Assembly: GCA_009829735.1 (NCBI GenBank)
Contig: CM020619.1
Coordinates: forward strand, 12,267,777 to 12,331,776
DNA length: 64,000 nt
Reading direction: 5' to 3'
From: Pyropia yezoensis
Lineage: Eukaryota > Rhodophyta > Bangiophyceae > Bangiales > Bangiaceae
The notes under the pieces were generated by a model, which had not been told where the DNA came from, did no database searches, and saw only the letters and a list, made by a program, of their open reading frames with translations. Positions 7,818 through 39,883 of this stretch are shown in pieces. Both the position numbers and the translations under genes were made by a program. Within the stretch, counting starts at the first letter, position 1. The number at the start of each line of letters is the position of its first letter.

Positions 7818-7830
7818 TATCCCCCCCTTA
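7818..7830 (-). other. Polypurine tract of copy C
   Basis: On the minus strand TAAGGGGGGGATA lies immediately upstream of the 3' LTR, the position and composition expected for the plus-strand DNA primer of an LTR retrotransposon. Confidence 0.85.
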
Positions 7831-10432: not shown

Positions 10433-10854
10433 GGTCCTACCGGGCCTCGTATCAGGTGCCACCGGCTCCGGTGGTAGCCGTGTCGGCTCCTGTGGCTCCT
10501 CTGGCTGCGCCAGTGTCACCTCCCGCCCCTGTCCTACATGACGGGGGTCCCCGTCTCTGGTATGAGGGCGTTGACGCCCTTGTTACCCGCGCAATGCGTG
10601 GGGGTCTCTCTGTTAGCTGGGGGGATATCCCCCCAGGTGCTGCGCTGGTTGGGTCAGCGCGTTGCTTCGGTGGCGTGCTGGACCGCCTCCAGAAAGCTCT
10701 GGAGGACGTGGAGGCTGGCCGCAGCACCCTCGTCCAGCTATGCACCGAGGTAACTCGGGTGGTCGACCGTCGTGACGTTGCCGACCGGTGGAGCACGGAG
10801 GTCTACGCGCTTACGCGTGAGTGGCCTCCCTCGGGCAGTGGGTCTACCCACTGA
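10360..10854 (+). CDS. Antisense ORF of copy C, C-terminal part in a shifted frame
   Basis: 164 codons overlapping the end of the main antisense ORF by 73 bases. It begins with an Arg-rich stretch, then a Pro/Val/Ala-rich linker (about residues 33-58), then a helical region with the pattern 'GGVLDRLQKALEDVEAGR' and 'VADRWSTEVYALTRE'. The antisense ORF of the second retrotransposon (26043-28160) also ends with a Pro-rich linker followed by a helical segment (VLNNVVDRVF... QQWSETFTGF). The most likely reading is that both ORFs here were one gene and a one-base change split them; an overlapping second gene is the alternative. Confidence 0.6.
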   Translation: MGGEREVSRRRAEYRRGYGGAPSVGSYRASYQVPPAPVVAVSAPVAPLAAPVSPPAPVLHDGGPRLWYEGVDALVTRAMRGGLSVSWGDIPPGAALVGSARCFGGVLDRLQKALEDVEAGRSTLVQLCTEVTRVVDRRDVADRWSTEVYALTREWPPSGSGSTH

Positions 10855-11332
10855 GGAGTGCTATTGTTTGTGCGGGAGAGGGCCCCGGCAACCCTTATGG
10901 TAGCCGGGTAGTAGTGAGTATAAACTCATCCCCTTTGGGGGCATTGCTTGCCTCTGTTTGCTGCCCTGGGGAGTACCCCTTCTGGCTCAGTGGTGCCTTG
11001 CCTCCCGTCCAACTTCTTCCGGTAGGTTCATGCTTGGGGAGGTCATCCTCCCTCACTTGGTGTCTTGGCTTGGGGAGGTCATCCTCCCGTGTAAGCTCCC
11101 TAGTTACTTCGATATTATCGGAGTTAGCCTTCACCTTTAAGTTAACTTATTAAGGTTCAGGTTTTACTTAGTTACCTAAGCTTAGCTCTACTTAGTTACC
11201 TAAGCTTGGTTCGACTTAGAAACCTAAGTCTGATTTGACTTAGAAACCTAAGTCTGCCGTAACCACGTCACACCCTACTTAGTAGGTATAAGCCTCACCC
11301 CCCAACAGCCGAAGTCGGTGTCGGTTGGGTTG
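10855..11332. other. Non-coding spacer between convergent antisense ORF and pol
   Basis: 478 bases. Contains a 16-base direct repeat (GGGGAGGTCATCCTCC at about 11036 and 11074, itself partly self-complementary) followed by four tandem dyad repeats (separate entry). No ORF of note. Its position between two convergent coding units fits a 3'-end or termination region for both. Confidence 0.6.
11166..11265. repeat. Four tandem ~25-bp repeats, each a near-perfect palindrome
   Basis: Units of the form ACTTAG-TTAC-CTAAG or ACTTAG-AAAC-CTAAG recur four times (starting near 11167, 11191, 11217 and 11240). Each can fold into a short CTTAG/CTAAG hairpin, and they are AT-rich in a GC-rich element. Possible roles are a bidirectional transcript terminator or a protein-binding array; neither is shown by the sequence alone. 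Confidence 0.85.
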
Positions 11333-13000: not shown

Positions 13001-13046
13001 CTTCAGCCTCCATCGGGCTAGCCTCCCATGGCTATCGGAATCCTTG

Positions 13047-15497: not shown

Positions 15498-15505
15498 CCT
15501 TCCTC

Positions 15506-17689
15506 TTACTCGTTTCCCGCCCTTGGTAGGGTGCTGTCCGCCGGGACATCCGGCTGAGGAGGTGCCCCCGCGACGGCCAGTACTCCACCTGGAGCTGGCT
15601 GCCTACCCGGTGCGGGTCCGGGTGCTCGGGCGGGATACCCCCCGGTGGATGCCTTGCGTTGCGCCGCTGCCCGCCGAGACTCCTCGGGGATGAGTGGGCA
15701 GGAAGACACCCAGTGCTGGGGACCCCCACACAACATACATCCGGACGTGCCGGTCCCTCCTTGAGTTCGCATCGGGGTAGCCCCGTAGCTGCGGTTGCCT
15801 CCCTCGGGCGCCCGAGTGCCTGCTCCCTGGTAGGCCTTGGGTCCTTGGGTCAACCGGAACATAGACTCCCCCAACCGGTTGGGTCGGCCCGCAATCTGCG
15901 GAGGTGCCTCCGTACGTACTGCCCATGTAGGCAGGGGCTGGGGGGGGTTACCCGTAACCGGGGCATACCCCGTTGTCCGCACATACGGGACGCGCCGTCC
16001 CGTTCCTTCGTTGACCTGGAACTGGGTTCCAGCCGGGGCGATGTACGCTACCGTACCATGTTCATCAATCACCGGCGTCGCCGGTAGCAACAGGTGGCCC
16101 TGTTGGTCGACTAGAGGGTCATCCTCACCAATAGGGGTATGTTCGGTCGCCACCAGTACTGGTGCGGCCTTACGTTCCACCTTCTCTTGCCTCGGTACCG
16201 GGGTAAGACTGGGCTTGCCTCCCTCACCCTTGGGCTTCGGGGCCAAGGCACACTCCGGGTGTAGAACCCGGTAGGCGTCCCCTAGGGACTTGCACATATG
16301 CATCAGTCGACTGAAGTTCGTCCGTGCCGTGTTGGCGCCCCGTACGGATATCCGCACGTAGTTGGGTACTCCTGCGAACAGGATGGCCCGTAGCTCCCCT
16401 TCTCCGAGGAGCTTCCCCAGCTCGTAGTCGAGCTCTTGGATCCGGCGTCCAAACATCTCCTCATCCTCCCAGGACTGGGCGGTGGCAGTGCGAAGGGCCC
16501 GATAGTGGTCCTCGCACTTGTCCTCACTGAGGTAGCTGCTCAGCAGCTCCTTCAATATCCCACGGTAATCCATGGGGGTGGCCGCGACCCTCATTCCCGG
16601 CATCGGGGATGCCTGGCGAAGAATGCCTCGCACCCGTTCATCAACAAAGAACGGGAGGATCTCCAGGGCCAGCCCCTCGTTAACGAGCGCCTTGTCTGCG
16701 GCTGTCTTGAAGCTAGTCAAGAAGCCGATGACTGCCAACGGGCGTCCGTTCGGCCCCCCGAACATAGGGACTCCCTTCATAAGGGTCTGCATAGAGCGGA
16801 TCGCCCGATGCGACGTATTACGCATCGATTCCGATACGGTGGTAGAGCGGCCCTCCAAACGATAACGTTCCGGAGTAAGAACCGACCGGAAGACCTCGTT
16901 GACGATCTCCGTGTCAGCGTCCTGGATATCCAGTCGCTTAGCCAGTTGATGAGCGAACTCATCGGATTCCATCCGCTTCAGTAGGCTCGCAGTTACCTGC
17001 GCGGTCATAGCTTCCACCACTGAAGATGGTACTTCAGGCGTCGGCACCTCGGGAACCCGAGTTGCCTGGCCTCCTTCGTCGTGGGGGTACTGCGAGAGGG
17101 TACCCCCTCCCCCAATAACCGACTCTCCCCCGGCGTACGTATCCGCCGGGTCGTGTCCGCGGAGTCCGCTTCGGGTGCTCCGAGCGTATCGCTCCGTGTG
17201 ACTCCGTTCCAACTCTGCCGACGAGTCGGACCCATACCCCATTGTGTCCGGGGGTTGTCCAGGAGTAGCAACCCCGGGATTGACCCTGGTGGACTCCGAA
17301 AGTAGTCCGGCCGGTTCGAACCGTACCGGTGTGGGCGGAACACGACGGGGTCCCGTCGTGTGCCGTGTTGACATCAACACTGCCATTGCGTCCTCCGTCC
17401 GATCTTGACGGGCGTCGAGCCCGGAAAACCGGGCCTCGATGCGGGCCAATGATGCCATCAGGGAATCCCCTGGTGAAGGAGGCGGCGGAGTGAGGTCGGT
17501 CGACGACAGTTGAGGCGGGCCCCCGCCTCCTGCCGTCCGAGCCGTGCCAAACGTCGATCCGGCACCGGAAAGCATTGGCGTCTCAATGTTATCGATCGGG
17601 TTCCCGATCCCGGCTCCCGTAGTCACCTCCGGAGTCGGCGTCGACGCCGATCCGTCATCTTGAACGTTCCCCGTCTCTTGGGTAGACAT
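15506..17689 (-). CDS. gag of copy C
   Basis: 727 codons from ATG at 17689; an in-frame GTG two codons upstream is unlikely to be the start. Structural protein that packages element RNA. Residues 1-190 are Ser/Thr/Arg-rich. A helical capsid-like region lies at about 215-480 (for example ILPFFVDERVRGILRQ, HYRALRTATAQSWEDEEMF). A CCHC zinc knuckle (CMLCGGPQHWVSSC) near residue 670 is the RNA-binding nucleocapsid motif. The last codons overlap the frameshift site. The only one of the three copies with an uninterrupted gag in this window. Confidence 0.9.
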   Translation of the reverse strand: MSTQETGNVQDDGSASTPTPEVTTGAGIGNPIDNIETPMLSGAGSTFGTARTAGGGGPPQLSSTDLTPPPPSPGDSLMASLARIEARFSGLDARQDRTEDAMAVLMSTRHTTGPRRVPPTPVRFEPAGLLSESTRVNPGVATPGQPPDTMGYGSDSSAELERSHTERYARSTRSGLRGHDPADTYAGGESVIGGGGTLSQYPHDEGGQATRVPEVPTPEVPSSVVEAMTAQVTASLLKRMESDEFAHQLAKRLDIQDADTEIVNEVFRSVLTPERYRLEGRSTTVSESMRNTSHRAIRSMQTLMKGVPMFGGPNGRPLAVIGFLTSFKTAADKALVNEGLALEILPFFVDERVRGILRQASPMPGMRVAATPMDYRGILKELLSSYLSEDKCEDHYRALRTATAQSWEDEEMFGRRIQELDYELGKLLGEGELRAILFAGVPNYVRISVRGANTARTNFSRLMHMCKSLGDAYRVLHPECALAPKPKGEGGKPSLTPVPRQEKVERKAAPVLVATEHTPIGEDDPLVDQQGHLLLPATPVIDEHGTVAYIAPAGTQFQVNEGTGRRVPYVRTTGYAPVTGNPPQPLPTWAVRTEAPPQIAGRPNRLGESMFRLTQGPKAYQGAGTRAPEGGNRSYGATPMRTQGGTGTSGCMLCGGPQHWVSSCPLIPEESRRAAAQRKASTGGYPARAPGPAPGRQPAPGGVLAVAGAPPQPDVPADSTLPRAGNE
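15512..15518 (-). promoter_or_regulatory. -1 ribosomal frameshift slippery heptamer GGGAAAC between gag and pol (copy C)
   Basis: On the minus strand the gag frame reads GCG-GGA-AAC-GAG-TAA. The heptamer G GGA AAC has the X XXY YYZ form required for tandem -1 slippage and lies one codon before the gag stop. The -1 frame is open from here into pol, which is exactly the pol frame. A potential stem CCGGGG...CCCCGG lies downstream. GGGAAAC is an established -1 slippery sequence in some retroviruses; use here is inferred. Confidence 0.75.
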
Positions 17690-17895
17690 AGTCACAATCA
17701 GTCCACCGATGCAACGATCACCACGAATAAGAGAGCGAGGGGGTAGATTGGGGAGAGTAACAGTATGTCACAGTCACAGGTAAAAGCTCAACACAATCGA
17801 TCAGGTCGCAACACCACGAGTACAAGAAAAGGACCGGATCCCTATCCGTGTGCCAGGGCCGAAGACGGCGTCACCACAAGGGTGACGGAAACCCG

Positions 17896-17913
17896 TCCCC
17901 TGCTGCTCCACCA
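17896..17913 (-). other. Primer-binding site of copy C
   Basis: Minus strand TGGTGGAGCAGCAGGGG, one base inside the 5' LTR. It starts TGG, complementary to the CCA end of a tRNA, as LTR-retrotransposon primer sites do. The same sequence occurs in the second, unrelated-looking element at 34342-34359. I cannot name the tRNA without a search. Confidence 0.8.
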
Positions 17914-17914
17914 A

Positions 17915-18277
17915 TGTAGCACAATAGGAATCCGTCGCACGTCCACTCTCAGGGAACACTCACCAAGGGGGATCGGCACCAACGTCACCGGGAGGCCAAG
18001 GTTGCTGTCCTTGGAGCGCAAGCCACGGTACCAAGATGGGAGCCCAAATGGGAGGGGTTTGTTGTTCTACCTTGGCCGGCGGTGGATTCGCCACCGGCCC
18101 CCTCGTTATAAACCCTCGGAGACACTACTAACTACCCTCCACCCCAAGATGCAAGTCCCTCTGGTCATACGTAACTTATAGATACCGTGACCAGTTCGGA
18201 CTCTCAAATTGGAAGTTAAGGATTAGAAGTAGCCCCCCTAATATTAGGGTCACAATACGGACAACCATATTGCTACA
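17915..18277 (-). repeat. 5' LTR of copy C
   Basis: 363 bp, TGTAGCAC...TTGCTACA. TTATAAA at 18106-18112 is a TATA-like box on the minus strand for gag-pol transcription, next to a GGTGG/CCACC hairpin (about 18080-18098). Flanked on the right by GGTTGGC, the start of the Harbinger-like remnant. Confidence 0.93.
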
Positions 18278-19414: not shown

Positions 19415-20765
19415 TTAGTCATGACCCTCAATAGCATCCGCTGCCGTTTTGTCGTCGACGTCCTCTCTGGAGTCCAATAAACCCTTCCATCCGTCCCCCT
19501 GGTCCAATAAAAAGTTGTGGAGGCGCACGCATGCCTCAATAGCGTGGGAGAACAACTCAGTCCCGGTTGATATTCCACCATGGAGCACCCTCCATCGACC
19601 CTTCTACACCCCGAAAGCCCTCTCCACGACGGCGCGGGGGGAACAGAGAAAGCGGTTGAATATCCGCCGTCGCTCCGTCGTGAGCTGGTCCTCGGGGTAA
19701 GGCCTCAGCAGCCGTGTCCCGAGAGCAAATCCCCCGTCAGCCAGCGGAATGCAGTGAGGGAGAAGCACCGGGGAGCTGCCAGTTTTGCGCTCATACCATG
19801 CGCTCTCCTTAAACGCGCGACTGTCAGCCATGGAGCCACCTAGCCTTGACCGTGTCAAGATGAAGCGCTCGTGCGCGTCAACGATGGCGAGAAGAATCAC
19901 ACCGCAGAAGCACTTACGCGTGTTAAAAGCCCTCTTGTGTTTCGCGGGAGGGGTCCGGATGGGGATAAGGCACCCGTCGATGAGGCTGACCACACGCCTG
20001 AAATCGCTGCCCAGACGACGCTCAAACCGCGCCGCGACGGCCGCTTGACCGGCTTCCGTCCGGGGAAAGTGTGGGGTTGGCACCGACGCACGTTGAATCG
20101 CCCTGAGAACTACTCTTACGATGGTTGAAAACGTAGAGTTGGCCATGTCCGCAACCTCGCACGCCTCAAACTGGCTTTCCCCTTGACCAAGCCAAATCAG
20201 AACCAACGCAAGCCGAATACGAGGCTCGATGCTTGGCGCGCGTCCCACTACCCCGTCTCCATCAGAGCAGAGCGCAGAAACGGCTGTGCTCGCGAGCGGA
20301 GAAGCTCACACGAGGCATGTGTCATGCACATCCGCTTGTAAAATCGTTGCTTACCACATTCCGTCAAGCGAGGGAGCCATGTCTCTTCGTTGTCGCGGCT
20401 TCACACCGCCCCTGACTCTCTGTCTCCTTCTGGAAATGGAACTGTCAACGCGAACGCATAGAGAAAGCAACGCTTTAATCCTCTTCCGAACAGGCGTCGC
20501 CAAAAGCTCCCCGCACTCCCTCCCCCACGGCGCCCACGCCTCCCCCTCCGCATGCGAACAAATCATCATTGTCCAGATCCCCCAAAATATCCAGCCGGTT
20601 GTCGCCTCCAGGCAAGCAGTCGGCAGCCGCATCCCCAGGTGCACTGAGCTCATTACATTCGCCATCCCAAGCGGCGAATGGATCGTCAAGGAGCCGCCGG
20701 CGTACCACCGGGCGCAGGAGACCCATACCAACGGCGGCTGGTGCACGTGCGCCCAGATAGGACAA
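19415..20765 (-). pseudogene. PIF/Harbinger transposase (DDE_4 type), degenerate
   Basis: The 19604-20248 segment has a helix-turn-helix-like stretch (EACEVADMANSTFSTIVRVV) and the nuclease motifs SLIDGCLIPI, GGSMADSRAF, ADGGFALG and VVERAFG. A TAG at 19604 interrupts the sequence right after VVERAFGV, where the family has a hydrophobic residue before K-G-R-W; the same frame then stays open to a stop at 19415. The N-terminal part is split over two more frames (to 20351 and 20475-20765, the latter acidic: LDILGDLDNDD), by frameshifts or small introns (GTAAGC on the minus strand near 20353). Shorter and broken compared with the intact 426-residue transposase at 51713, so not expected to be active. 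Confidence 0.75.
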
Positions 20766-24512: not shown

Positions 24513-25284
24513 CTACCGACCCTCGGCCTTTTGAACGCCTTCTTGTTTACAAAAACGTAACGGGGGTTGGCCGGCTTACTGTGCGCCCACCAGCACTTGG
24601 TCAGTATAAAACGCACGAAAGGTCGGGACTATGCGGGCGCACGATGTCCCCGCAGCCTGGTGTCAATAAACGACCTGTCTATTTTGCTCTTTTCTCCTCC
24701 GACCAACTCTAAAATGCAAGAACTTTACGTGCGCTGCATGCAGGCGAGAGCGTCCAGAGGCCGACATGGACACGGAGACAGCCCGGACCGAGTTCAATCT
24801 GCACACCCGACAGCCCACTCCGATAGTACAGCCGCCGAGTCGGCCGTAGCCGGCTGAAGGCCGATTGCAGCTGAGAGGGTTTCATAGCCACACGTGGCGA
24901 AACCCTTAGATGAAGCCAAGTTCGTTTATGAACGGCACGGAATGTGCAACCCCTCCTCCCCCCCCACATCCCCCCCACTTCCCGAAGTACCGTGTGTTGT
25001 AAGCTAACCCAGCATAAAACTAGAATACTTAAACGCGCGTTGCATAAATCAATTGATTAAACAGATGGACAGTTATAAAACGTAATGTTATTACCAATCA
25101 TGGTCCTGGGGGGGTTCTCCCATTGACTCTATATCTCCCACTCGGATCTCGATTCAAGCGTGAACCGAGCTGAAGATTGTTGCGCATTACAGATACTATC
25201 AACAAGATCGGCCCACAAGATCAGTGGGGCTGTTTTCAGTCGATTTAACACGCGTTTCTACAAAGTACACATCCAGAAGTACAT

Positions 25285-25855
25285 TGTGGTATAAAACTCG
25301 ATCCTCTCAGACACGTGTCAATATCTCTCGGGGGACAGGGACAGGTAACACAGAAAGGGGAACTACGAGAATGGTATGCCTGTTGCCTCACGTGCCTGCT
25401 CGCAGAGCAAACAGATACGCACGGTAGTGCACACGGGAAAGAGGAAAGCAAACGCGCAGTTGTCTTTTTCCTGAGGGCGCGGGCCAAAGGCGCCTCGCTG
25501 TTCCTCTTAACGTGCATCTGGGGGAGCCTCGGCACGTCGGCCAGGTAGCCCCCCCATAACCCCGAGTGGCCCCGACCCGAGTCTAACCTCGCCAGGTCGG
25601 GGGCCACTATCACTACTAATTCTATTCCCACTCACTAATCTCACACTCAATTTCTCTCAAATCAAGTCCCTCACAAGTATGCAAAAACCCATCAGAAATC
25701 CCTCTCTCACGTGTGGATAGCGTAGTCCACCGCATCCCAGTGCCGGGCACGGGCCACGGCCGCAAACCATCACCACACGGCGGGCGTGTTCTGGCACCTG
25801 GTGCCCTCTGGTTGTAGTCCCGGGTCGGCGCCAAGTCGGGGCCAGGGATGCTACA
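25285..25855 (-). repeat. 3' LTR of second retrotransposon
   Basis: 571 bp, TGTGGTAT...GATGCTACA, an imperfect terminal inverted repeat (TGTRGYAT). A plus-strand TATAAAA at 25290-25296 points toward the antisense ORF. The adjacent GGGAGGGAGCTA on the minus strand (25856-25867) is a polypurine-tract candidate. Confidence 0.95.
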
Positions 25856-25867
25856 TAGCTCCCTCCC
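25856..25867 (-). other. Polypurine tract of second retrotransposon
   Basis: Minus strand reads AGGGAGGGAGCTA directly before the 3' LTR. Position fits, composition is purine-rich but imperfect. Confidence 0.6.
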
Positions 25868-26042
25868 TAGTCCGGCATGTCCTCGGGCCGAACCAGGTGC
25901 CACCGTGCACAGCCTCGAGCACGTCCACACCGGTGCCGAGGTCGAGCGTCTTCATCCCGGTCACGATCACCTCCTCCGATTCTGTCCCCCCCACCCCTTC
26001 TCCTTCACCTTGGCCTTCTCGTTCCCCCGGATTCTGGACGTC

Positions 26043-28160
26043 ATGTCCAGTTCCGAGATTCAAGCTGGGCCCGTGGTTCCGGCGGCGAGTGTTGCGGAGG
26101 AGAACTCGGGTAGTCGCGCCCCTCTCCTGCCTCCGGTTCCTCGGGTGTCGGTGCCGGCGCCGGTCGCCACGGCGGGGACGGATCAGGTTCCCCCGGCTTC
26201 TGCGTTGCACCCGGTCGAGACCCCCCCGGTGGGTCTCCCGGAGATGCTTCTTGGGCAGGATCCTCTGGCGGGCCGGCGCTACTCCACGGTGGTCGGCAAC
26301 GCCAGCGCGGCCCAGTGCCAACAGGATTGCTTGGACATCTGGCGCAAGGAGCTCCAGCGCGGGGTCTTGACCGAGATGGACAAGACTCGCCTTCATACGG
26401 CGGACCAGATGCGCCTGGCACAAGACCGCTCCCAGAGCTGCTCGGGTTCCTCTTGGGTTGCTCGCCTGGAGGATCTCCCCTTCGCGCAAGTGCTGGATCT
26501 ACCCATGACCGAGCGTCGCGTGTCTGCGTCCGTTCTCCGGTGGCCAGAGGAGGAAGGGTACGTCCACCGGGCGCTCAAGGTCTGGGACGAGGCGCTCAAG
26601 GGGTCGGGGAGCCTGAACTGCGATCCCCGTCCGAGCATGGTCGCTCTGGAGCCGCCTTTCCTGACCCGGAAATACTCCAAGTTGTCGCCGGTGCGGGAGC
26701 AAGGCGAACGACGCGGCCGACAACGTGACTTCATCGTGAGCTGCAACCATCAGGAGTTCTGGAAGTTGGACAAGGCCAACCGGGCGGCGTACAACCCCAA
26801 GGTCATCCCGCAGCAGCAGGAAATCGAGATCCCAGTCGGGTTTGCTCCATCCAGCATCCCCTTCACCAGGCACTTCTTGGACGCCTTGACCCAGGCGTCG
26901 ATCAAGGGCTTCTTCCACTCGATCCCTTACATGATGTACACCTCCGAGAGGACGGTCTTGGCGGCCAACCACTGGCTCCACGAGGTCTTGGTGTCCAACC
27001 GGCTTTGGTTCCTCCCCGACCTCCTGATGGTCTGGATTGTCGACAAGTTGACTGTCGACTTCCTGTGCAGCCAGGACGAGGAGTACAAGGAGCTCTTCCA
27101 GGCGATGATTGACTTCCGGCGTCGGCTGCCGGTGCATGACCGGAGCTTCTTGAACGCCGTTGCCGAGCAGAACAGCCCGCGTCGGGATGGCTCCGGTTGG
27201 GTGCAGGTGGTCTACCAGTCTTTTCCGGCCAAGGTGCAGCTGTCGATGCCGCTTCCGGCGTGGCCGCAGCTGAGCAGCTTTCCTGCTCCGGTCGCCCTTG
27301 ATCTCCTGCCAACTGGGCCGCCGGTACAAGAGTCGGGTTGGGCCGCAGCGGTTGGTCGGGCGTCTGCGGCGGCTCCGCTTCCTCCTGTTGCCCCTGTCGC
27401 TCCGGTGGCTTCGCCTGAACCGTCGCCGGCGCCTTTGCGTCCTGCTCCGTCTGTGCCGGTGCTTCAAGCTCCTCCGGCACCGCGCTTGTCTGCAGCGAGT
27501 CTGGGCGTGGCCGTGCGGTCGCCGACTACTCCGGCCGTTCTGCCTCGGGCGCCTTCTTCCAACGTCGGCGGCCCTGTGCCTCCTCTTGCGTTGGGGACTC
27601 CGGTTTCCGGGGCTGTCGTGGACCGTCCGGTAGTGGCATCCTTGAGGCGGTTCGAGATCCCGGCGCCGACTCTACGCCTTACCCGCTTCCGGGTGCCTGA
27701 CTGGTACCTGAACCAAGGTGGCCCGACATGCGACCAGTACGACGTCGGTATGATTGAAGACCAGCTGGGTCGTCTTCCGGTGCAGGTTGAAGGCGTCGGG
27801 TCTTCCCTGGTGCTGGGTACTTACGCCAGCGTCTTGAACAACGTGGTTGACCGGGTGTTTGCCTGCGCGGACAGCGGCCAAATGTCGGACAGCCCGGTGG
27901 TTGGCGAACTTCTGGCGACTTTGACGCGGCATGGCTTGGCGCAGCAGTGGTCGGAGACCTTCACTGGCTTCCAGAGGCGCCGACAGGCATATCTGGATGA
28001 GCGGGAGCGCCCGGCAACTACCGGTACTACTCCAATGGCGTCATACCTGGAAGCGCCGCGCCCACCGCACTACGTCATCCCGCCTTCCTCCGGTTCCCGT
28101 CGTGCCGCGGAGGCAGCGCTGGAGAACGCTCCCGCGGCGCAGCGTCCGCGCCGGGAGTAG
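26043..28160 (+). CDS. Antisense ORF of second retrotransposon (unknown function)
   Basis: 705 codons from ATG at 26043; the frame is open back to an ATG at 25848 inside the LTR, but residues added there are low complexity and the later ATG gives a more natural start. I do not recognise the family. Residues 1-90 are Pro/Val/Ala-rich. Residues 95-420 are a globular domain rich in Trp, Phe and Arg (NHQEFWKLDKANRAAYNPK, FLPDLLMVWIVDKLTVDF). Residues 425-545 are a Pro/Ala/Val linker. Residues 545-640 are helical (YDVGMIEDQLGRLPVQ, VLNNVVDRVF, QQWSETFTGFQRR). The tail is basic (AAQRPRRE). No stop or frameshift over 2.1 kb, while pol on the other strand has two nonsense codons and a lost catalytic residue. 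It is convergent to pol with a 145-base gap. What it does is unknown; capsid-, envelope- or silencing-suppressor-like roles would all be guesses. Confidence 0.75.
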   Translation: MSSSEIQAGPVVPAASVAEENSGSRAPLLPPVPRVSVPAPVATAGTDQVPPASALHPVETPPVGLPEMLLGQDPLAGRRYSTVVGNASAAQCQQDCLDIWRKELQRGVLTEMDKTRLHTADQMRLAQDRSQSCSGSSWVARLEDLPFAQVLDLPMTERRVSASVLRWPEEEGYVHRALKVWDEALKGSGSLNCDPRPSMVALEPPFLTRKYSKLSPVREQGERRGRQRDFIVSCNHQEFWKLDKANRAAYNPKVIPQQQEIEIPVGFAPSSIPFTRHFLDALTQASIKGFFHSIPYMMYTSERTVLAANHWLHEVLVSNRLWFLPDLLMVWIVDKLTVDFLCSQDEEYKELFQAMIDFRRRLPVHDRSFLNAVAEQNSPRRDGSGWVQVVYQSFPAKVQLSMPLPAWPQLSSFPAPVALDLLPTGPPVQESGWAAAVGRASAAAPLPPVAPVAPVASPEPSPAPLRPAPSVPVLQAPPAPRLSAASLGVAVRSPTTPAVLPRAPSSNVGGPVPPLALGTPVSGAVVDRPVVASLRRFEIPAPTLRLTRFRVPDWYLNQGGPTCDQYDVGMIEDQLGRLPVQVEGVGSSLVLGTYASVLNNVVDRVFACADSGQMSDSPVVGELLATLTRHGLAQQWSETFTGFQRRRQAYLDERERPATTGTTPMASYLEAPRPPHYVIPPSSGSRRAAEAALENAPAAQRPRRE

Positions 28161-28305
28161 TACTTGGAGGCAGGGAGGGTGAGAGTCTTGGGAGAAGCGA
28201 GGAGGGAAGAGGCGGAGAGAAGAATTGCTCGAGCGGGTGCTTGTTTTTCTTGATAGTTCCATGCTTGTATTGCGTGTTTTCCTTTATACACCCGTTCCCT
28301 TCTTC

Positions 28306-30234
28306 TCAATCCTCTTGTTCCGCGTTCGTTGCGGGTGAGCTCAGCTCGTCCCCGGGGTCTTGATCAGCCCCGTCCTCCTGGTCCGTTTCCGAGTCCGATT
28401 CCAGGGTCTTGCCGGCTTTGGCCACTGGAGTGCCCTCAATCCCGTTCCGTCGCGTGTAGGCGCAGACGTCCGCGATGGGTAACCGGTTTGAGGGTTCCCA
28501 GGTATCATCTTCCGGGTCAAAACCGAACCAGCGTACTCGCAGGTACAAGCGCCCGTCCCTCCAGGCATGGTCGACAAGCTTGACGTAGACATATTCCCGG
28601 CCTTCTTCTTGGGATAGCCAGGGTACTGCGGCCTGCTTGCGCCGGTTCAAGTCCCGTTTGCTTGGCGGTGGGGCTCGGGTGGCAAGGTCGCGGCTCACCC
28701 GGTACTGGGAGCCATCCACGTCTAGAAGGAAGGTCCAGCCATCCGTATTCAGGATCTCATAAGGTCCATCCGTCTTAGAGTCCAGCTTCCCCCGGGTCTT
28801 GCTATGGTTGTCCACAAAAACCCAGTCGCCACCACCCAGTTCCTTGTTCTTTTCCCGGACTCCCTTGTCATAGTCCCGCTTGTATCGCTCCTGGGTCTTT
28901 GAGATTGACTCCTTGACTCTGGGGAGCAGGAGCTTTAGTTGTTCCAGGAACTCATCCTTGGCCTTGGGACCTGACTTCAATGCAGGCTGGAGACCGTCTG
29001 GTATTCTTTCCAAGGAGAAGCTGATCAGCCGCCTTGGGGTGACAAAGTCGAGTGGAGCGACCCCCGTTGTCCGGTGAACTCGGGAGTTGTAGGCTAGCGT
29101 GAGGACAGCCAGGAGCTCGTCCCAGTCTTCTTGGTGCTCCTCCACGTAGTGCCGTAGCATGTCCACCAGAGTCCGATTGAATCTTTCCACCTGGCCGTTC
29201 GTTTGCGGGTGGTATGTCGTGGTGAACAAGTTCTTGATACCCATCAGGTCACAGACTCCTTGGAAGAACAGGGATGCAAACCGGGGGCCATTGTCTGTTA
29301 AGACGGAGTCTGGAGGGCCGTAGGCAGCTATCCAGTACTCGCAGAAGGCTGACGTGACATCCAGAGCCGTGATGGTCCTCAGCGGGATCGCTCGAGTGAA
29401 CTTGGAGAACCGGTCACGAATGATGAGCAGGTATATGTTGCCGCTGGATGTTTCAGGTAGGGGCCCCAGGATGTCCATGCTTAAGCTTGCAAAGGGCTCC
29501 GCCGCAGGGAATAGGCGTAGCTTGGAAGTCTTCTTCCTCTGGGACAACCGGTTCCTTGCGCAAGAAAAACAAGCCTCCAGGTGCTTATGGACGTCGCTGG
29601 CCATGGTTTCCCAGTAGTAATGTCGTCGCATTGAAGCATACATCCGATTGATACCAGGATGTCCGGCCTGGGGAGACGAGTGCTCCAGGCGTAGGATGTC
29701 GGCTCGTAGACTCCGGGGTACGTAGACTTGAGTTGCCCCATCGAAGGGTGACACCCGTACCAGGAGTCCATCTGTAGACTCGAAGAAACGACTGTTCCGG
29801 TTCAGGTCCATTTGGTGGCGAAGCTCCAAGCATTGAGGATCCGTCAGTTGTGCCTCCAGCATCCGGTGAATGGTCACCGGTTGATGAGCTTCAGGTGTCT
29901 CATACAGGGGAGCATGCCAGCCACGTCCGACATTCGGGAGGATGAAACAAGGTACTTCCTCCGGGATAGGGCCGGTGTCGGCTGCAGGAGTCTCCAGCCG
30001 GGACATGGTGTCGGCGCAGTGGTGCTCCCTCCCTGCTCTGGTGCACACCTTGTACTTGAATTCCGAAAGGCGTAAGCGCCACCGGGCGACCCTTCCTTGG
30101 CTGCTGTCCATGCATAGCAGCCACCTACGGCTGGCGTGATCCGTCCGGATGAGGAACTCTTGTCCTTCAAGATGTGGGCGTAACAAGAAGCAAGCCCAGA
30201 CGACCGCCAAGCACTCGCGCTCCGTCGTGGATTA
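28306..30234 (-). pseudogene. pol of second retrotransposon, part 3: end of RNase H, integrase, chromodomain
   Basis: Follows the TAA at 30232-30234 in the same frame. RNase H tail (FLIRTDHASRRWLL). Integrase zinc domain (HSSPQAGHPG... CFSCARNR). DDE core with D in SMDILGPLP, D in VLTDNGPRFA and E in TNGQVERFNRT. The C-terminal chromodomain (YVYVKLVDHAWRDG... RVRWFGFDPEDDTWEP) contains the aromatic residues of the classical fold, which places the element among chromoviruses. Reading frame intact for 634 codons, but translation must pass the upstream stops. Confidence 0.9.
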
Positions 30235-31416
30235 ATTCCTCTCGGCTGGAGTCAGGACGCGACTGTAGTAGCCTATCGGGAGGAAGTGCCCATCAGGTTG
30301 CTGCTGGAGTAGAGAGCACCCCACCTGGACGCCACAGGCATCAGTCTCCAAGACAAGCTGGCCCCCCCGCTTGGGTAACGCCAGTACTGGAGTTGTGGTC
30401 AGGCGCCTCTTGAGCTCTTCGAAGGCCGCGGTCTGCTTCTCGTCGAACACCGGGAGTTGTGTGGGGAGCTTCTTGCTGGTGAGCTTGGTCAATGGCCGGG
30501 CAATCAGGGCATATTCCCTTACGAACCGGCGGTAGACGTTGCACATACCCAGGAAGCTCTTGAGTTCCGTCTGGGTCTTAGGTTGCCGTGCATGCCGGAG
30601 GACCTTGATGTTCTTCTCATTGACCCAGAGCTCCCCCTGACTCAGCACGTGCCCCAGGTACTCCACCTCAGTCTCAAACAGGTGGCACTTCTCGGCCTTC
30701 AGGGTAACTCCAGCCTTGGACAGGAGAGCCAGGACCTCTCGAAGGTGCTCCAGGTGTTCCGCCGGGGTCTTGGAGAAAACGATAATATTGTCCAGGTAGA
30801 CCAAACATGTTCTCCACCTTAGCCCCGACAGGATGATGTCGATGGTTCTCTGGAAGGTTGCCGGAGCATTGGTGAGACCAAAAGGAAGACGCTTGCACCG
30901 GAATAGTCCCAGGTGGCACGTGAAGGTAGTCTTGTCCTTGTCCTCGTCAGCCAGAGGAATCTGCCAGTAACCGGCATTACAATCCAGCGTCGAGAAGAGG
31001 GTGGCATCACCAAGAAAGTCGATGCAATCATCCATCCGGGGTATCGGGTATACATCCTTGACTGTCATCTCGTTCAGGCGCCTGTAGTCAACGCAGAAAC
31101 GGAAGTGACCGCCAGGTTTTGGGACGACTACCACCGGGAAGGCCCACTCGCCATCAGACGGCTCGATGACATCCATCTTGAGCATCTTGTTAATCTGCTT
31201 CTCAATCTCATCCCGGCGATGAGGTCCAGCCCGGTATGGTTGCAGGTGTACTGGCTTGGCATCCGGCTTGAGTTGAATCCGGTGTAGAGTGGCGTCCATC
31301 TTGCCCAGCTCTCCAGACCACAGGTGCCGATATCCCTGGAGTAGCTTCTCCAGTGCCTCCTTCAAGTCGGAAGGAACATTTTCTTGTTTGACCTTCGGCA
31401 TCCCGGGTGGTGCTTA
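30232..31416 (-). pseudogene. pol of second retrotransposon, part 2: reverse transcriptase and RNase H start, catalytic motif altered
   Basis: 389 codons from ATG at 31401. RT motifs FCVDYRRLN, STLDCNAGYWQIP, PFGLTNAPATFQ are present, but the catalytic motif reads YLDN where YLDD is required: the second aspartate of the metal-binding pair is Asn (one G-to-A change on the coding strand). RNase H starts LVLETDACGVQVG; the frame stops at TAA (30232) inside AERN-stop-STTERE, where element 1 has Tyr. Bounded upstream by another TAA at 31414. These changes should abolish reverse transcription by this copy. Confidence 0.9.
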
Positions 31417-32406
31417 TTCGGGCTTCGGAGTGGCGCTGCCAGCCTGCTCTTGCTTCGGAGGTACGTCTAAGGCCGTCAAGTTGGATGCCAGCTCTTGTTG
31501 CAGGTTCAAGAGGTCTTCCTTGCTCATAGCACGAGCGGACCCCCGGTAAGGCTCTGCTGTACCAACTCGGGTGCCCTTGGCGAGGGTTATTGGCTTCCGG
31601 CTCACGTTGACGATCAGCACCGAGAACGGGGTGTGCCTTTCTACCTTCTTGTGATGTTCGTGGGCCAAGTATAACCGGAGTTTCGCCAGAAATTCCTTAC
31701 GTCCGTAGATCAGGCATTGACCTGCAGTTCGGGTCGTTACTTGAACCTTGGTCTCCGAGCGAGGAGGTAGGAGCACCGGTTTGAAGAGAGTCAAGGTAGA
31801 GGGTGGAATGCGTTCCTTGTTGTTCTTGACTACACGAACCTTGGCATCCAGATGCTCCAACACCGGTGACACAAACCCATGGTTGAACTGCACCTTTCCT
31901 TCTCCGGGTAGGATGCTCTTGACATGCTGCCACTGGAAGTCCCAGCCTAGGATGAGGTGGACCGATAGAGTCTTGACTACTAGAAAGGGAAAAAGCATTG
32001 GTTCATTGTTGACATAGATGGCGACGGGAAGACGGCCAAGCGGTCGTAGGGTTTGACCTGAAGCTTCAACAATATGGGTTCTGGTAGGCGCTCTCCAGGC
32101 ATGTCGACGCCAGCCCGGAGGTAACAGGTTCTCAGTGATGACGCTTGGTCCGGCTCCCGCGTCAACCACCGGCGTAACAGCTTGGGGGAGGCTATCCCCC
32201 ACACGCATACGAGCATTAATCTTGAGGTTTTCCTTACGCAGGACAATCAAGGTCCCCTTGAACAAACAGGGTGTCCAGGCGGCTACCAGTTGAGCAGGTA
32301 ACTGCCGTCCTTTCTCCCGGCACGCAAGGGGAGAACGGGTAGAAGTACCCTGCCGTCGGAGGTTCGGGAAGACACTTGGGGAGAGCGCCTGCCCTACTCG
32401 TTTCTC
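31414..32406 (-). pseudogene. pol of second retrotransposon, part 1: protease
   Basis: The frame is open from the gag/pol overlap (minus strand GAGAAAC at 32400-32406) to TAA at 31414. The retropepsin-like motif is VVDAGAGPS; element 1 and most retropepsins have Thr or Ser at the second position, so the active-site loop is unusual. The later ILGWDF motif matches the second conserved part of the fold. The stop separates it from RT by only 4 codons and lies in the same frame. Confidence 0.82.
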
Positions 32407-34154
32407 GGGTCCGAGGAGTCCTTAGAGATTTCGGTCTCCAGGTCAAAGTCCGTAGGAGCTTCCCTTGCCAGAGCCTCCGTGATGCTCTGTGACATTGCCA
32501 CTCGGATTGCGTGTACCTGTGCCTTGTCCATCTTGGAAGGTGCTCGCCGGTCAGCCCAGTTGACCGCCTTTGCAAACACTAGTCCTTGACGCTTGAGTTT
32601 CTCCTGGAGATCCTTCGGAATGGTCGGGCACTGGTAGGACATGTGGTCCTCCTTCTGGCACAGCCAGCAAGACCGGAACCGCTGGTTCTTGACCTGCTTG
32701 GGGGCGACCAGGGAAGGTTGCTCCTTAGAAACGAAGCCGCCCCACTTGTCCCCTGACCCCACGGGTGAGGCCTCGCCAACTGCGAGTACCGGTACAGGGC
32801 TATCACCTCCCTTATACTTGTCGGGTCCGGGACGAACTCGCGACAACGGCTTGGGAGTTGATACCATGGGAGCTTGGAGGGCCTTGGCTTGCCGGTACTT
32901 GCCCTGGGTGTAGGCCATCACCTGCTGGAAGGTATGTTCTTGATGTTCCTGGTTGTAGTTCTCCGCATCCACTTGAAGATATTCAGGAAGCCCTTCCGAG
33001 AAGATCATCTTGAGCCTGTCCTCAGGGTAAACGTTGCCACAAGCCTCGCTCATCTCCCGGACACGACGGGCGAAGGCCTCTGGAGTCTCTTGTCTCTCCA
33101 TGGTTGCCCGGTTCAGCCTGCCGACTGCCGTACGCAGGGAGTCCGCGTCAGCGTAGTTGGACAGGAGCCAGTTAACCGCTTCCGGATAGCTCCCAACAGT
33201 ACGCCCAACAATGTGTCCGGCAGAGTCTGGTAGAACCTGTGCAAACCGCTGTTCCGCTTCTCCGGTCATGAAGCTAACCAGGAGGTAGAGAGCCTTGCCC
33301 TCGGACACATCGTTGTCGTTGCATGCCTTGACAAACCGGCGCAGGAAGGCAAAGATAAGCGCCGGTCTCTTCCCGGAAAACTTAGGATGTCCCCCGAAGC
33401 TCGGCTGCATTCGCCGGTTCAGGGATGCCATCTTCTTGGCCATCTTCCGGGTGTAACCTTGGTCTTGGTTCTCCAGCCGGTAGTTACCCCAATACGTGAC
33501 CTTGTTCAGGGTGGCATCTCCCACTTGGTGAGCAGGGAAGTCAAACTCGACTAGCCTGCGCTGAGTGGGACCAGGAGATGCGTCCCAGTCATATCCCTTC
33601 TCCGAGCTGGAGGAGCTGGTCTCGCTGGTGCTAGAGCGACGACGACGGCGCCGATGCCTCCGGCTGCTCCGGTTACCGGTCTTGGAGCTCCCCGCCCCAT
33701 AGGATGCAAGGGGAGGAAAAGCTTGGCCGGTCCCAGGAGTCGAGGTCTCAGGGAGGCCCGTAGAACCAGTTACAGCGGTGCCTCTGGCACTGCTAGTGCC
33801 CACAGGGAGAGGTGTATACACCCAGCTGCCGTGTGTGGGTCCAGGAGTAAACACACCAGGGGCTATCCCTGGAGGTTGAGGAGTAGAACCGACAGGAGGG
33901 AGACGTCTGCTGCGAGCGGACTCAAACGCCGTTGACCCCGGGGTGGCTCCCACAGGAGGAACAGCCGGAGGAACGGGAGCAGGAGGTACTTGGCCGCCTG
34001 TAGACTCCAGTCCGCTACCGGATGTCACACCCAGGTCTGCTTCACCCGTAGGGAGAACGCCGGGTTGGGCACCGTCCCCCGCGGTGACCAGGGATGCGTC
34101 AAGGGACGCGGGGTCTACCCCCTCGGGCACCGTCGTGCCAGGGAGGGTAGCCAT
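32394..34154 (-). CDS. gag of second retrotransposon
   Basis: 586 codons from ATG at 34154. N-terminal third is Pro/Thr/Ser/Gly-rich. An Arg-rich stretch (RSSRRHRRRRRRSS) near residue 175 may bind RNA or act in nuclear targeting. A capsid-like helical domain lies at about 250-430 (RPALIFAFLRRFVKACNDN, ETPEAFARRVREMSEACG). A CCHC zinc knuckle (CWLCQKEDHMSYQC) lies near residue 515. Ends ..RNE-TAG. Pol lies in the -1 frame as in element 1, but the slippery site reads GAGAAAC, one G-to-A away from the canonical GGGAAAC of element 1. Confidence 0.9.
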   Translation of the reverse strand: MATLPGTTVPEGVDPASLDASLVTAGDGAQPGVLPTGEADLGVTSGSGLESTGGQVPPAPVPPAVPPVGATPGSTAFESARSRRLPPVGSTPQPPGIAPGVFTPGPTHGSWVYTPLPVGTSSARGTAVTGSTGLPETSTPGTGQAFPPLASYGAGSSKTGNRSSRRHRRRRRRSSTSETSSSSSEKGYDWDASPGPTQRRLVEFDFPAHQVGDATLNKVTYWGNYRLENQDQGYTRKMAKKMASLNRRMQPSFGGHPKFSGKRPALIFAFLRRFVKACNDNDVSEGKALYLLVSFMTGEAEQRFAQVLPDSAGHIVGRTVGSYPEAVNWLLSNYADADSLRTAVGRLNRATMERQETPEAFARRVREMSEACGNVYPEDRLKMIFSEGLPEYLQVDAENYNQEHQEHTFQQVMAYTQGKYRQAKALQAPMVSTPKPLSRVRPGPDKYKGGDSPVPVLAVGEASPVGSGDKWGGFVSKEQPSLVAPKQVKNQRFRSCWLCQKEDHMSYQCPTIPKDLQEKLKRQGLVFAKAVNWADRRAPSKMDKAQVHAIRVAMSQSITEALAREAPTDFDLETEISKDSSDPRNE

Positions 34155-34341
34155 GTTGGTCTCTTGACAGCCACAGTCCAGTTGCCTGCGTGTCCAAAGA
34201 TCGCAAGACCACAAGAGAGGGGTTGGAGAGCCAGGAATGGGATTCCCGTGAACGGGTGCAAATAATTCCCAAACCACAGAAAAAGACAGAACAGGAACAA
34301 CCCAACCGCTGCTCCCAAATGTCTCTTCTCAAACACTCCTG

Positions 34342-34359
34342 TCCCCTGCTGCTCCACCA
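34342..34359 (-). other. Primer-binding site of second retrotransposon
   Basis: Minus strand TGGTGGAGCAGCAGGGGA, starting 4 bases inside the 5' LTR. It is the same sequence as the primer site of element 1, so both families should use the same tRNA primer. Confidence 0.82.
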
Positions 34360-34363
34360 AATA

Positions 34364-34934
34364 TGTGGTATAAAACTCGATCCTCTCAGACACGTGTCAA
34401 TATCCCTCGGGGGAAAGGGACAGGTAACACAGAAAGGGGAACTACGAGAATGGTATGCCTGTTGCCTCACGTGCCTGCTCGCAGAGCAAACAGATACGCA
34501 CGGTAGTGCACACGGGGAAGAGGAAAGCAAACGTGCAGTTGTCTTTTTCCTGAGGGCGCGGGCCAAAGGCGCCTCGCTGTCCCTCTTAACGTGCATCTGG
34601 GGGAGCCTCGGCACGTTGGCCAGGTAGCCCCCCCATAACCCCGAGTGGCCCCGACCCGAGTCTAACCTCGTCAGGTCGGGGGCCACTATCACTACTAATT
34701 CTATTCCCACTCACTAATCTCACACTCAATTTCTCTCAAATCAAGTCCCTCACAAGTATGCAAAAACCCATCAGAAATCCCTCTCTCACGTGTGGATAGC
34801 GTAGTCCACCGCATCCCAGTGCCGGGCACGGGCCACGGCCGCAAACCATCACCACACGGCGGGCGTGTTCTGGCACCTGGTGCCCTCTGGTTGTAGTCCC
34901 GGGTCGGCGCCATGTCGGGGCCAGGGATGCTACA
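34364..34934 (-). repeat. 5' LTR of second retrotransposon
   Basis: 571 bp, near-identical to 25285-25855. Followed on the right by TACAT, the target duplication. The plus-strand TATAAAA at its left end (34369-34375) points rightward, toward the uS19 gene about 1.4 kb away. Confidence 0.95.
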
Positions 34935-35045
34935 TACATGAGCGAGCGTCAAACACGGAAGACAACCACAGGGCTGTTAGGCCTAAGTCATACAAAGGTC
35001 TGCGGGCTACTTACGTGATCAGCCGTGCTCATCGCCATTGAGAGG

Positions 35046-36931: not shown

Positions 36932-39883
36932 CTATGCGTCTGCCTCCTCTGTCGCGTCAAAGTCTGGGATGTCGTCGCCAAAGCCCGCCCCCGCCTCTCC
37001 GAAGTCCACCCCATCATCGCCAAACTCAGCGTCTTCAAACCCACCGCCGAAGTCGACGTCGGGGGCGTCCTCGACTGGCGCCTCCTCGCCATTGGCAGTC
37101 GCTGTGTCCGCCTCGGCCGCTGGCGGAGACGCCTCGCGCTTCGTCGCCTCGGGCCCGTCCGCGGCAGCGGCAGCGTCCGACGTGGAAAGCGTTACTGTAT
37201 CCGCGACGGCACCCGCTACGGACGCAAACGCACCCGCCGCTGCGGATGCCACGCCGTCCACAACACCCTCCGTGGCAGGGGTGTCGGCCTCAGGCTCCAG
37301 CTCCGCCGCAATCTCGTCCGGGAGCCCGTCCCCATTGGCAAGTTCGAGCCCCGCCAGCAAGTCGGACACGTCTGTCATCGGCTCGTGCGCATGATCTGGA
37401 AAGGCCGACGCCGGCAGCGTCGCCCGACGCGCGTACAGTGCAGCTACCGCCTTCTCAATCTCTAGCGAGCTGGCATAGCCGGGGAAAAGGTGGGAGTGCT
37501 CATCGGGACTGCCGAGCGCATCCGCGATGCGCACGTTGCCTGCCTTGCGAAGGTCTGACCGCCACCGCTGCACCAGACGCGGGACCGCCGACGGTAGGTA
37601 GGTGCGCGCAAAGACGGCCGCCTCAGCAGCACGGCCCGCAGAAAGCAGCTGATCGATGCAGCCGTTGAGGTCACCAACCAAAAAGTGAGACAGGAAAGCG
37701 ACATTCATCTTGCCTGCCCCGCCAGCTGCAGACGCCACCGACGAAAGGCCGTCCCGGTTCCCGGCCGCCGTATGCAATGTCAAAAGCCCGGCGAAGTCGT
37801 CCACAGCGTTCATACACTCTTCCGCAAGGGCAAAATCGCCGCGAGCAGCTGCCAGCTCCGACAGTTGCCGCCACTTCAGCTCCGACGGGAATTCACGGGC
37901 AATGGACGCCGCCATATCTAGCTTACCAAGCGCAAGCGCCAGCTCGCAACGGTAGTCACCATCCGTAGCCAGCTCCAGGGCGCCCTCACGAAGGCCCTGC
38001 GACTCAAGAAAGCGGGCCAGCTTGTTGTGCTCGCTCTTTGGAATGCGCCCCAGCACCGCATCGGCAGTGGCCTTATCGCCCCGAACAATAGCGGTCTTGA
38101 ACTCGAGCACTGCCAGCAGCAGCACGTAGCTGACCACCGCTCCATGTTTGTCCACCAGATACAGCCGGTTCTCCTTCGGCAGGTAGCCCAACAGGTACAA
38201 CGGGCGGTCCAGATGGAAAAGCGTCGCCACTTCTGCCCCCACCGTGTAGTTCAGGCGCCCGTTGCCATTGGTGTAGACAAAGCAGTCGCCCACCCAGCGG
38301 CCCGAATGGGCGGTGTCGGGAACTTGGTGCAGCAATTCGAAGGCATCCTCCACACCATCCGCATCAAGGACTCCACCTGAAGCATCCAGGGCAGCGTCCA
38401 CAGCGCCGCGGTTGTACGACAGCACAAAGAGAGCTTCCTGGGATGCTACCGCCACGAGCGCCGCGCTATCCGCCCAGTACACCGAACGGGTAGTGACATC
38501 GATACGGCGCACCAGCGCAAGCGTCTCCCAATCATAAAAGCATACAAAATCTGGGCCGCGGACACCCAGAAGGGCGCCCCCAAAGATGGCATCCGTCTGG
38601 AAAGGCAGCCGCAGGGCGGTCCGTTCTTGGAAGGCCTTGTTGTACACGCGCACGTCAGACGAGCCAATGCGTACAGCGTACTCCCCCGCGCCACCGTCCC
38701 ACACCACCTCGTCTGCCGTCCCGAACGCCTTGTTCCGCCAGGCCAACGCTGTATAGATGATGTACTCGCCGTCGCCGCAGACAGCGACAAAGCGACCGTT
38801 GGGGGAGTGCGCCACGGACTGGGGGTAGATCTCGCACGAGCCCAGCTCCTTGGACGGGAGCACCACCCGCTCTCCGTCCTTGAGGCTGTCCGCATTTGCG
38901 TTGCGCACATTAACAGTGCTGATCTCGTTGTGCTTGGCCAAGATGACCTTACCGCCGTTGTCCATCGAAGCAACTGGCTCGTCCTTACCCAGCTGCAACA
39001 GCACCGAGCCATTGTCAAAGCCCAATGCAACTAGGTTGGAGCCCTTCAGGTAGGCCACCGACCAACACCGGTCCAATCCATAGTTAAGCGTTGTCTCAAG
39101 CCGGTAGGTGTTGGCATGCCACAGCAGCACCGACCCGTCCTCAGAGCCCGAAACAATCAGCGGACGATCCGGAAGGAAGGCCACCGCGGACACGTTGTGG
39201 GAATGCCCCGTTAGCGTGGTCACGCAGCTCTTGGTCTGATAGTCCCAGATCTTGACAGACCGGTCGTCCGAACCGGTGACAAGGTACGGCTTGTCGCCGC
39301 CTGAGTAGTAGTCAATGCTGTTGACACCCTTCTCGTGGCCCTCGAGGGTGTAGTTGGGCACAGGGGAAGAAAGGCTCCACACTTTGACGGTGTGGTCCAG
39401 ACTGGCAGTCGCAAACGTGTTCGGATCCTTGGGATTGAACCGCACCTGCATGATGTAGTGCGAGTGGCCCTCCAGCACTTGCATGCACGACCATCCCTTT
39501 TCCCAGTCCCAAATCTTGATCAGCATGTCATCCGAACAGGACACCACCAGCGGCAGCGTCGGGTGCACGGCGATAGACCGGATGTAGTCCTGGTGAGCCT
39601 CAAACGTCGCCACCTTGTCCATCGTGTTGTAGTTGTACACGCGGATGAACATGTCATCAGCCCCGACGATGACCCATTGCTGCCTGGGAATGAAGGCCCC
39701 ACAACGGACGGGCTGCTCCGACACCTCCCAGCTCTTAACCACTTGCTGCGTGGTGTGGTCATAAATGAAGACGTGCCCGTCGTACAGCGACGCCAGCACC
39801 CATGGCTCGGTGGGGTGAATGTCCACGCACTTGACACGCTCCGAGCGAGCGCTCAGCTTCTTCTTAATATCCAGCCGAAGAGG
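36932..39883 (-). CDS. COPB2: Coatomer subunit beta' (beta'-COP)
   Basis: A subunit of the COPI coat that covers Golgi-derived vesicles and carries retrograde cargo to the ER; its WD40 propeller binds dilysine signals. The N-terminal ~300 residues form WD40 repeats (VKCVDIHPTEPWVLASLYDG, SVKIWDY, HSHNVSAVAFLPDRPLIVSGSEDGS), followed by the coatomer WD-associated region and an alpha-solenoid. The last ~110 residues are acidic and Ala-rich, end EEADA, and are longer than in many homologues. The coding frame begins right after an acceptor-like TTATAG at 39884-39889 with P-L-R-L-D-I-K, the residues that normally follow the start Met. The ATG is therefore on an upstream exon; ATG-GTGCGT at 40411-40416 (minus) is a candidate. 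Divergent from the FZL gene. Confidence 0.93.
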   Translation of the reverse strand, partial: PLRLDIKKKLSARSERVKCVDIHPTEPWVLASLYDGHVFIYDHTTQQVVKSWEVSEQPVRCGAFIPRQQWVIVGADDMFIRVYNYNTMDKVATFEAHQDYIRSIAVHPTLPLVVSCSDDMLIKIWDWEKGWSCMQVLEGHSHYIMQVRFNPKDPNTFATASLDHTVKVWSLSSPVPNYTLEGHEKGVNSIDYYSGGDKPYLVTGSDDRSVKIWDYQTKSCVTTLTGHSHNVSAVAFLPDRPLIVSGSEDGSVLLWHANTYRLETTLNYGLDRCWSVAYLKGSNLVALGFDNGSVLLQLGKDEPVASMDNGGKVILAKHNEISTVNVRNANADSLKDGERVVLPSKELGSCEIYPQSVAHSPNGRFVAVCGDGEYIIYTALAWRNKAFGTADEVVWDGGAGEYAVRIGSSDVRVYNKAFQERTALRLPFQTDAIFGGALLGVRGPDFVCFYDWETLALVRRIDVTTRSVYWADSAALVAVASQEALFVLSYNRGAVDAALDASGGVLDADGVEDAFELLHQVPDTAHSGRWVGDCFVYTNGNGRLNYTVGAEVATLFHLDRPLYLLGYLPKENRLYLVDKHGAVVSYVLLLAVLEFKTAIVRGDKATADAVLGRIPKSEHNKLARFLESQGLREGALELATDGDYRCELALALGKLDMAASIAREFPSELKWRQLSELAAARGDFALAEECMNAVDDFAGLLTLHTAAGNRDGLSSVASAAGGAGKMNVAFLSHFLVGDLNGCIDQLLSAGRAAEAAVFARTYLPSAVPRLVQRWRSDLRKAGNVRIADALGSPDEHSHLFPGYASSLEIEKAVAALYARRATLPASAFPDHAHEPMTDVSDLLAGLELANGDGLPDEIAAELEPEADTPATEGVVDGVASAAAGAFASVAGAVADTVTLSTSDAAAAADGPEATKREASPPAAEADTATANGEEAPVEDAPDVDFGGGFEDAEFGDDGVDFGEAGAGFGDDIPDFDATEEADA

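Follow-up and report, generated by a model that had tools for sequence, protein, structure and literature searches.

We analysed a stretch of 64,000 nucleotides from the red alga Pyropia yezoensis (assembly GCA_009829735.1, contig CM020619.1, positions 12,267,777 to 12,331,776 of the forward strand), hereafter the window, and found in it a Ty3/gypsy retrotransposon, E1, that carries a 705-codon open reading frame (ORF) on the strand opposite to gag and pol. This frame, asORF1, lies between pol and the 3' long terminal repeat (LTR) and is very probably a real antisense gene of the element. The explanation that we favour as a whole, in which a red algal Ty3/gypsy family has a genuine gene for an accessory protein, is likely; the regulator role that it includes is a possibility. 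A second element of the window, E2, has an antisense ORF at the same site, which strengthens the case for asORF1 as a real gene. The parts of E1 are listed below in window coordinates.

25285-34934, minus strand: E1, a Ty3/gypsy element with chromodomain
25280-25284 and 34935-34939, no strand: target-site duplication TACAT, flanks read by eye
25285-25855, minus strand: 3' LTR of E1
25856-25880, minus strand: putative polypurine tract AGGGAGGGAGC adjoining the 3' LTR, found by eye
26043-28160, plus strand: asORF1, 705 amino acids, antisense to gag-pol between pol and the 3' LTR
28306-32421, minus strand: pol region with protease-like part, reverse transcriptase (RT), RNase H, integrase and chromodomain
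32394-34328, minus strand: gag-like ORF, 644 amino acids, with a CCHC knuckle match under the Pfam cut-off
34364-34934, minus strand: 5' LTR, followed by the putative primer-binding site TTGGTGGAGCAGCAGGGGAC

The antisense reading frame of E1

The initial annotation of this DNA had pointed to an uninterrupted antisense ORF of 705 codons between pol and the 3' LTR, and the frame was recovered as such. The stop-free frame extends over 25818-28160, or 780 codons, and starts within the 3' LTR of E1. In 400 first-order Markov simulations of 25858-28305 the longest stop-free run across the six frames had a median of 232 codons, a 95th percentile of 341 and a maximum of 472, all well short of this length. 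Codon usage was scored with one host gene as reference, a coatomer-like ORF at 36932-39883 that was named by eye from its WD-type repeats. The score of asORF1 peaks in its own frame (0.028 versus -0.159 for the next best), and for the controls E1 gag and E1 pol the true frame was chosen. A predicted protein, P0001 (583 amino acids, from an ENA contig of 2319 bases), aligns gap-free with residues 123-705 of asORF1 over 583/583 positions, with 56 differences (90% identity). The earlier view that the frame encodes a real protein and is not a shadow of another gene is thus supported by the codon fit, by the gap-free relative and by a run longer than chance. The protein is laid out as a Pro/Ala-rich N-terminus, a core (residues ~161-360), a Pro-rich linker (~396-545) and a predicted helical C-terminal part (~546-646), where the limits of core and linker were set after the alignment was seen and the helices come from a low-confidence model only.

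Selection on asORF1, taken alone, appears likely but is not proven from the comparison with P0001. Neutral drift to the divergence of P0001 leaves the asORF1 frame stop-free in 7.5% of 400 simulations; P0001 itself comes from a predicted-protein database, which favours open frames. Differences between the two proteins are rarer within the domains that the initial annotation had delimited (residues 95-420 and 545-640) than outside them (28/394 vs 28/189, p 0.004). A post hoc split of asORF1 (161-360 plus 546-646 with 11/301 differences, remainder 45/282; p 3.8e-7) was set aside because its limits were picked after the alignment had been seen, and we relied on the previously delimited domains instead.

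The initial annotation had further presented asORF1 as kept open inside an element whose pol is dead. The state of pol was described correctly: two in-frame TAA codons (31416-31414 and 30234-30232) interrupt it, and the RT active site, TACCTGGACAAT, reads YLDN instead of YxDD with loss of a catalytic Asp, so that pol of this copy is dead. As evidence of selection, however, the contrast had to be rejected. The two LTRs of E1 are mismatched at 8/571 sites, which corresponds to about 0.7% substitutions per copy since insertion, and the number of nonsense hits expected in this time is 0.45 for asORF1 (P of none 0.64), 1.00 for pol and 0.44 for gag. With so few hits expected, E1 can have an intact asORF1 and a dead pol without any selection on this copy, and in a young insertion it is nothing unusual for an open antisense ORF to adjoin a pol that has two stops. 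The overall interpretation of the initial annotation therefore survives as to a protein-coding antisense gene, but not as to the kept-open argument.

E1 shows the marks of a Ty3/gypsy chromovirus, with LTRs, a target duplication, the order RT-RNase H-integrase and a C-terminal chromodomain, the latter passing marginally (Chromo 25.2 bits versus a Pfam cut-off of 25.1). Pol further matches RVT_1, RNase H and the integrase zinc and core domains in Pfam; its protease-like part scores under the cut-off.

A second element and the relatives of its antisense frame

Both full-length elements of the window (2/2), which belong to two different families, have an antisense ORF of matching site and orientation. 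The second of these elements, E2, is made up as follows.

7455-18277, minus strand: E2
7455-7817, minus strand: 3' LTR of E2, 96.7% identical to 17915-18277 (blastn)
8407-10854, plus strand: asORF2, antisense between E2 pol and the 3' LTR, a frame-broken copy
8305-8811 (ATG at 8407), 8510-10432 and 10315-10854, plus strand: open pieces of asORF2, in different frames
11165-11256: pair of overlapping tandem arrays of 24-bp repeats in the interval from asORF2 to the end of E2 pol
11333-15602, minus strand: E2 pol in two overlapping open pieces with RT, RNase H and integrase, frame break near 13047-13087
15506-17767, minus strand: gag-like ORF of E2
17915-18277, minus strand: 5' LTR of E2

The pol sequences of E2 and E1 share 43% identity over 788 residues and 39% over 584, and the gag of E2 is weakly similar to that of E1 (27% over 253 amino acids, E 3.5e-18). 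Despite this low pol identity the putative primer-binding site TTGGTGGAGCAGCAGGGGAC is common to both elements (34331-34363 in E1 and 17881-17914 in E2, minus strand). The RT active site of E2 retains YLDD, and no Chromo match was found in E2 at E up to 0.1. Its LTRs are more diverged than those of E1 and its antisense ORF is broken; by eye, the frame junctions are bridged by relatives, P0002 at the N-terminal one and P0003 at the C-terminal one. The codon score is best in the stated frame for both pieces of asORF2 that were tested (-0.041 and -0.055; next best for the main piece -0.121). Two truncated E2-family copies were observed at ~1-4622 and 5209-7454, with a run of N (4673-5171) between them. 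In the second fragment pol sequence directly abuts the LTR at 7455, and this LTR may be common to two tandem elements or may reflect an assembly collapse.

A protein database search with the main piece of asORF2, in which scoring covered the 7995 candidates with the most words in common, yielded ten relatives, namely P0002, P0003, P0011 and seven proteins of Pyropia vietnamensis (Bangiales, Rhodophyta) that are annotated as hypothetical (MMPV_ loci 009242, 008948, 008454, 009449, 001347, 008444 and 006872). Identity of these seven to the query is 42-61% over 32-74% of its length. They are spread over at least six contigs, since the longest contigs of their clusters come in six different lengths; with one of them, P0004, the other six share 88-94% identity. 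Between the main piece and P0004, 257/452 aligned residues are identical (57%) and the aligned part contains no stop, while in neutral simulations to the same divergence 300/300 sequences gained at least one stop (mean 8.1). A DUF6214 match on 1/11 asORF2 members (E 0.014) was discarded. From these comparisons we read the E2 antisense gene as what seems to be an old protein gene, conserved and present in multiple copies, that belongs to red algal elements.

A common origin of the asORF1 and asORF2 proteins is hinted at, but not shown, by their sequences; since several tests were tried, we regard this as no more than a hint. Alignment of the two families by hhalign gave probabilities of 1.0% and 0.7%, with the best alignments falling in Pro-rich stretches instead of the similar-looking parts, and blastp of P0001 against P0004 gave E 0.062 over a middle stretch. 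In Smith-Waterman shuffle tests the C-terminal parts reached p 0.012 with P0003, 0.23 with P0005 and 0.48 with P0004, and the middle parts 0.085 with P0003 and 0.65 with P0004. The family profile ranked P0001 4th and asORF1 91st in a set of 1002 sequences, of which the remaining 1000 were produced by local shuffling of asORF1. The C-terminal profile score was matched by 70/3000 shuffles, and asORF1 and P0001 ranked above 127 unrelated window segments (hhalign 1.6%). C-terminal helices appear in similar order in the low-confidence AlphaFold2 models of asORF1 and P0004, which does not amount to a test. Common location and orientation favour a single origin; the sequence does not settle it.

Elsewhere in the window, the ORFs at 19604-20305 and 51713-52993 (both minus strand) contain DDE_Tnp_4 (PF13359) transposase domains, and we take both to be Harbinger-type. 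The ORF at 49116-50249 (plus strand) has a sub-threshold SAP domain match (E 0.012).

Weighing the alternatives

Several observations weigh against reading asORF1 as an accessory protein gene. P0001 is its sole relative known, a further search with residues 80-430 having returned P0001 alone, and neither antisense protein is explained by any Pfam, NCBIfam or PDB-sequence family. Substitutions in asORF1 are not significantly uneven in a boundary-free test (221/2000 simulations as uneven), nor are those between asORF2 and P0004 in 25-column bins (737/5000), and the changes between asORF1 and P0001 are not clearly conservative (20/200 simulations equally good). The codon score, with its single host gene as reference, fails the E2 pol control, where an antisense frame scores -0.138 and the true frame -0.207. 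The P. vietnamensis proteins are gene models able to splice around stops, and an antisense position behind pol is not visible for them. Structure prediction failed as well: the AlphaFold2 models are uninformative, with a mean predicted local distance difference test (pLDDT) score of 32 for asORF1 and 28 for P0004, and the former is too poor to judge the domain limits that the initial annotation had drawn. Separately, no relatives turned up in scans of viral contigs and prokaryote contigs, and Rfam at gathering scores gave no match across the whole window. A few PDB sequence matches (a Rieske subunit with E 0.0029 on the Pro-rich linker at 471-556, a major histocompatibility complex chain and flagella) were dropped as low-complexity or weak.

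The ORF could also be a passenger, that is, a host gene or other mobile element captured by an ancestor and carried along. The codon use of asORF1 is nearer to that of the single host gene (0.028) than is that of E1 gag (-0.094) or pol (-0.128), and Pfam scans found no relatives among known retrotransposon families. However, P. vietnamensis relatives of asORF2 that lie on several contigs and closely resemble each other are expected of an element gene, and two divergent elements agree in the site and orientation of the ORF; we consider a passenger unlikely, even though for relatives outside P. vietnamensis a single-copy host gene and an element copy are indistinguishable. It is also conceivable that the antisense transcript itself matters, with double-stranded RNA formed with the gag-pol RNA silencing or tuning the element and the protein being secondary. 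The convergent arrangement and the lone plus-strand TATA box in the E1 LTR would suit such a role, and PMC7264820 discusses double-stranded RNA among the effects that antisense units of this kind might have. An RNA-only role would not require 705 open codons, however, and the 57% protein identity of asORF2 to a P. vietnamensis protein, free of stops in the aligned part, speaks against it too, which leaves this explanation with a small chance.

Finally, long opposite-frame ORFs occur in the GC-rich stretch of asORF1, and the frame might be the shadow of a sense-strand gene behind pol, where the longest sense ORF (26499-27671) has 390 amino acids. Pfam yields no match for this sense frame. Minus frames across the asORF1 stretch have scores from -0.171 to -0.215 and contain 3-12 stops as compared with 0.028 and none for asORF1, and the relatives retrieved from the database correspond to the antisense frame, although no protein database search was made with the sense frame itself. 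A shadow is therefore highly improbable, and an accessory protein gene of the element remains the reading that we adopt.

Likeness to plant antisense genes and a possible role

According to PMC7264820, an antisense ORF is present between pol and the 3' LTR in maize Grande (gene23), rice RIRE2, Silene Retand (ORF4), PvRetro13 and the fungal element Boty. An opposite-strand ORF between pol and the 3' LTR, as in the class termed aORF-3R, is found in both E1 and E2. With the plant members of this class (Grande, RIRE2, Retand and PvRetro13) and with Boty, the two red algal elements share the site, the antisense orientation and the recurrence in related elements. They differ in their red algal relatives, in the absence of any Pfam or NCBIfam family and in the chromodomain of E1; the comparison with Grande, RIRE2, PvRetro13 and Boty is one by description. 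No red algal antisense retrotransposon ORF was among the matches listed in full-text literature searches, whose coverage left out most subscription papers, and this agrees with the initial annotation, which knew of none described for red algae.

According to PMC11963269, 57/104 antisense ORFs of Retand carry TRP28 (PF04195), TRP28 is apparently restricted to flowering plants, Retand is a non-chromovirus, and tandem arrays are reported in its region between pol and the 3' LTR. Place and orientation are the same for asORF1 and asORF2, and tandem repeats likewise occur in E2 (24-bp, 11165-11256). In contrast, PF04195 gave no match at E up to 10 in two asORF1 and 11 asORF2 sequences, and the marginal chromodomain of E1 speaks against a Retand lineage for this element. 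Retroviruses of the human T-cell leukaemia virus (HTLV) type, as discussed in both papers, also have an antisense gene at the 3' end with a promoter in the 3' LTR; the likeness is one of analogy only. In sum, asORF1 is an antisense aORF of the Grande, RIRE2 and Retand kind in red algal elements, without TRP28; it sits like an aORF-3R and may work like one. A bolder proposal, that chromoviruses of red algae possess an ancient antisense gene for an accessory protein built of a core and C-terminal helices, with one origin in E1 and E2 and unrelated to plant TRP28, appears doubtful to us on present evidence.

The sole TATAWAW motif in the E1 LTR lies on the plus strand at its sixth base, 25290 (34369 in the 5' LTR), and points toward asORF1. 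In E2 a plus-strand TATAAAA is present at 7647 in the 3' LTR, the 5' LTR is without TATAWAW, and the LTRs have shorter matches to TATAA on either strand. From this arrangement asORF1 could have a promoter of its own, situated within or next to the 3' LTR with the TATA box at the LTR edge, and a short antisense mRNA would run through asORF1 and end in the 145-bp gap before pol. Such a transcript is plausible but unproven. The product, with its Pro-rich arms, core and helical C-terminus, would act on the RNA or DNA of the element, most likely as a nuclear regulator common in trans to all copies, and copies with a dead pol could still supply it. Grande gene23, described in PMC7264820 as nuclear and as transcribed from a promoter of its own, serves as the analogy for this regulatory role, which we put forward tentatively, as a possibility. 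The initial annotation had suggested that the protein may act in trans, for instance in packaging or in evading silencing, and these roles would be equally conjectural.

Antisense genes behind pol have been an unexplained habit of some plant retrotransposons. Red algal elements with a protein of no recognised family in this position suggest that the habit arose more than once, and they provide a second set in which to ask what such genes do. If E1 and E2 do carry one ancient red algal gene, antisense genes between pol and the 3' LTR would have arisen separately in red algae and in flowering plants, which would suggest that long Ty3/gypsy elements share a need for a regulator read from the opposite strand.

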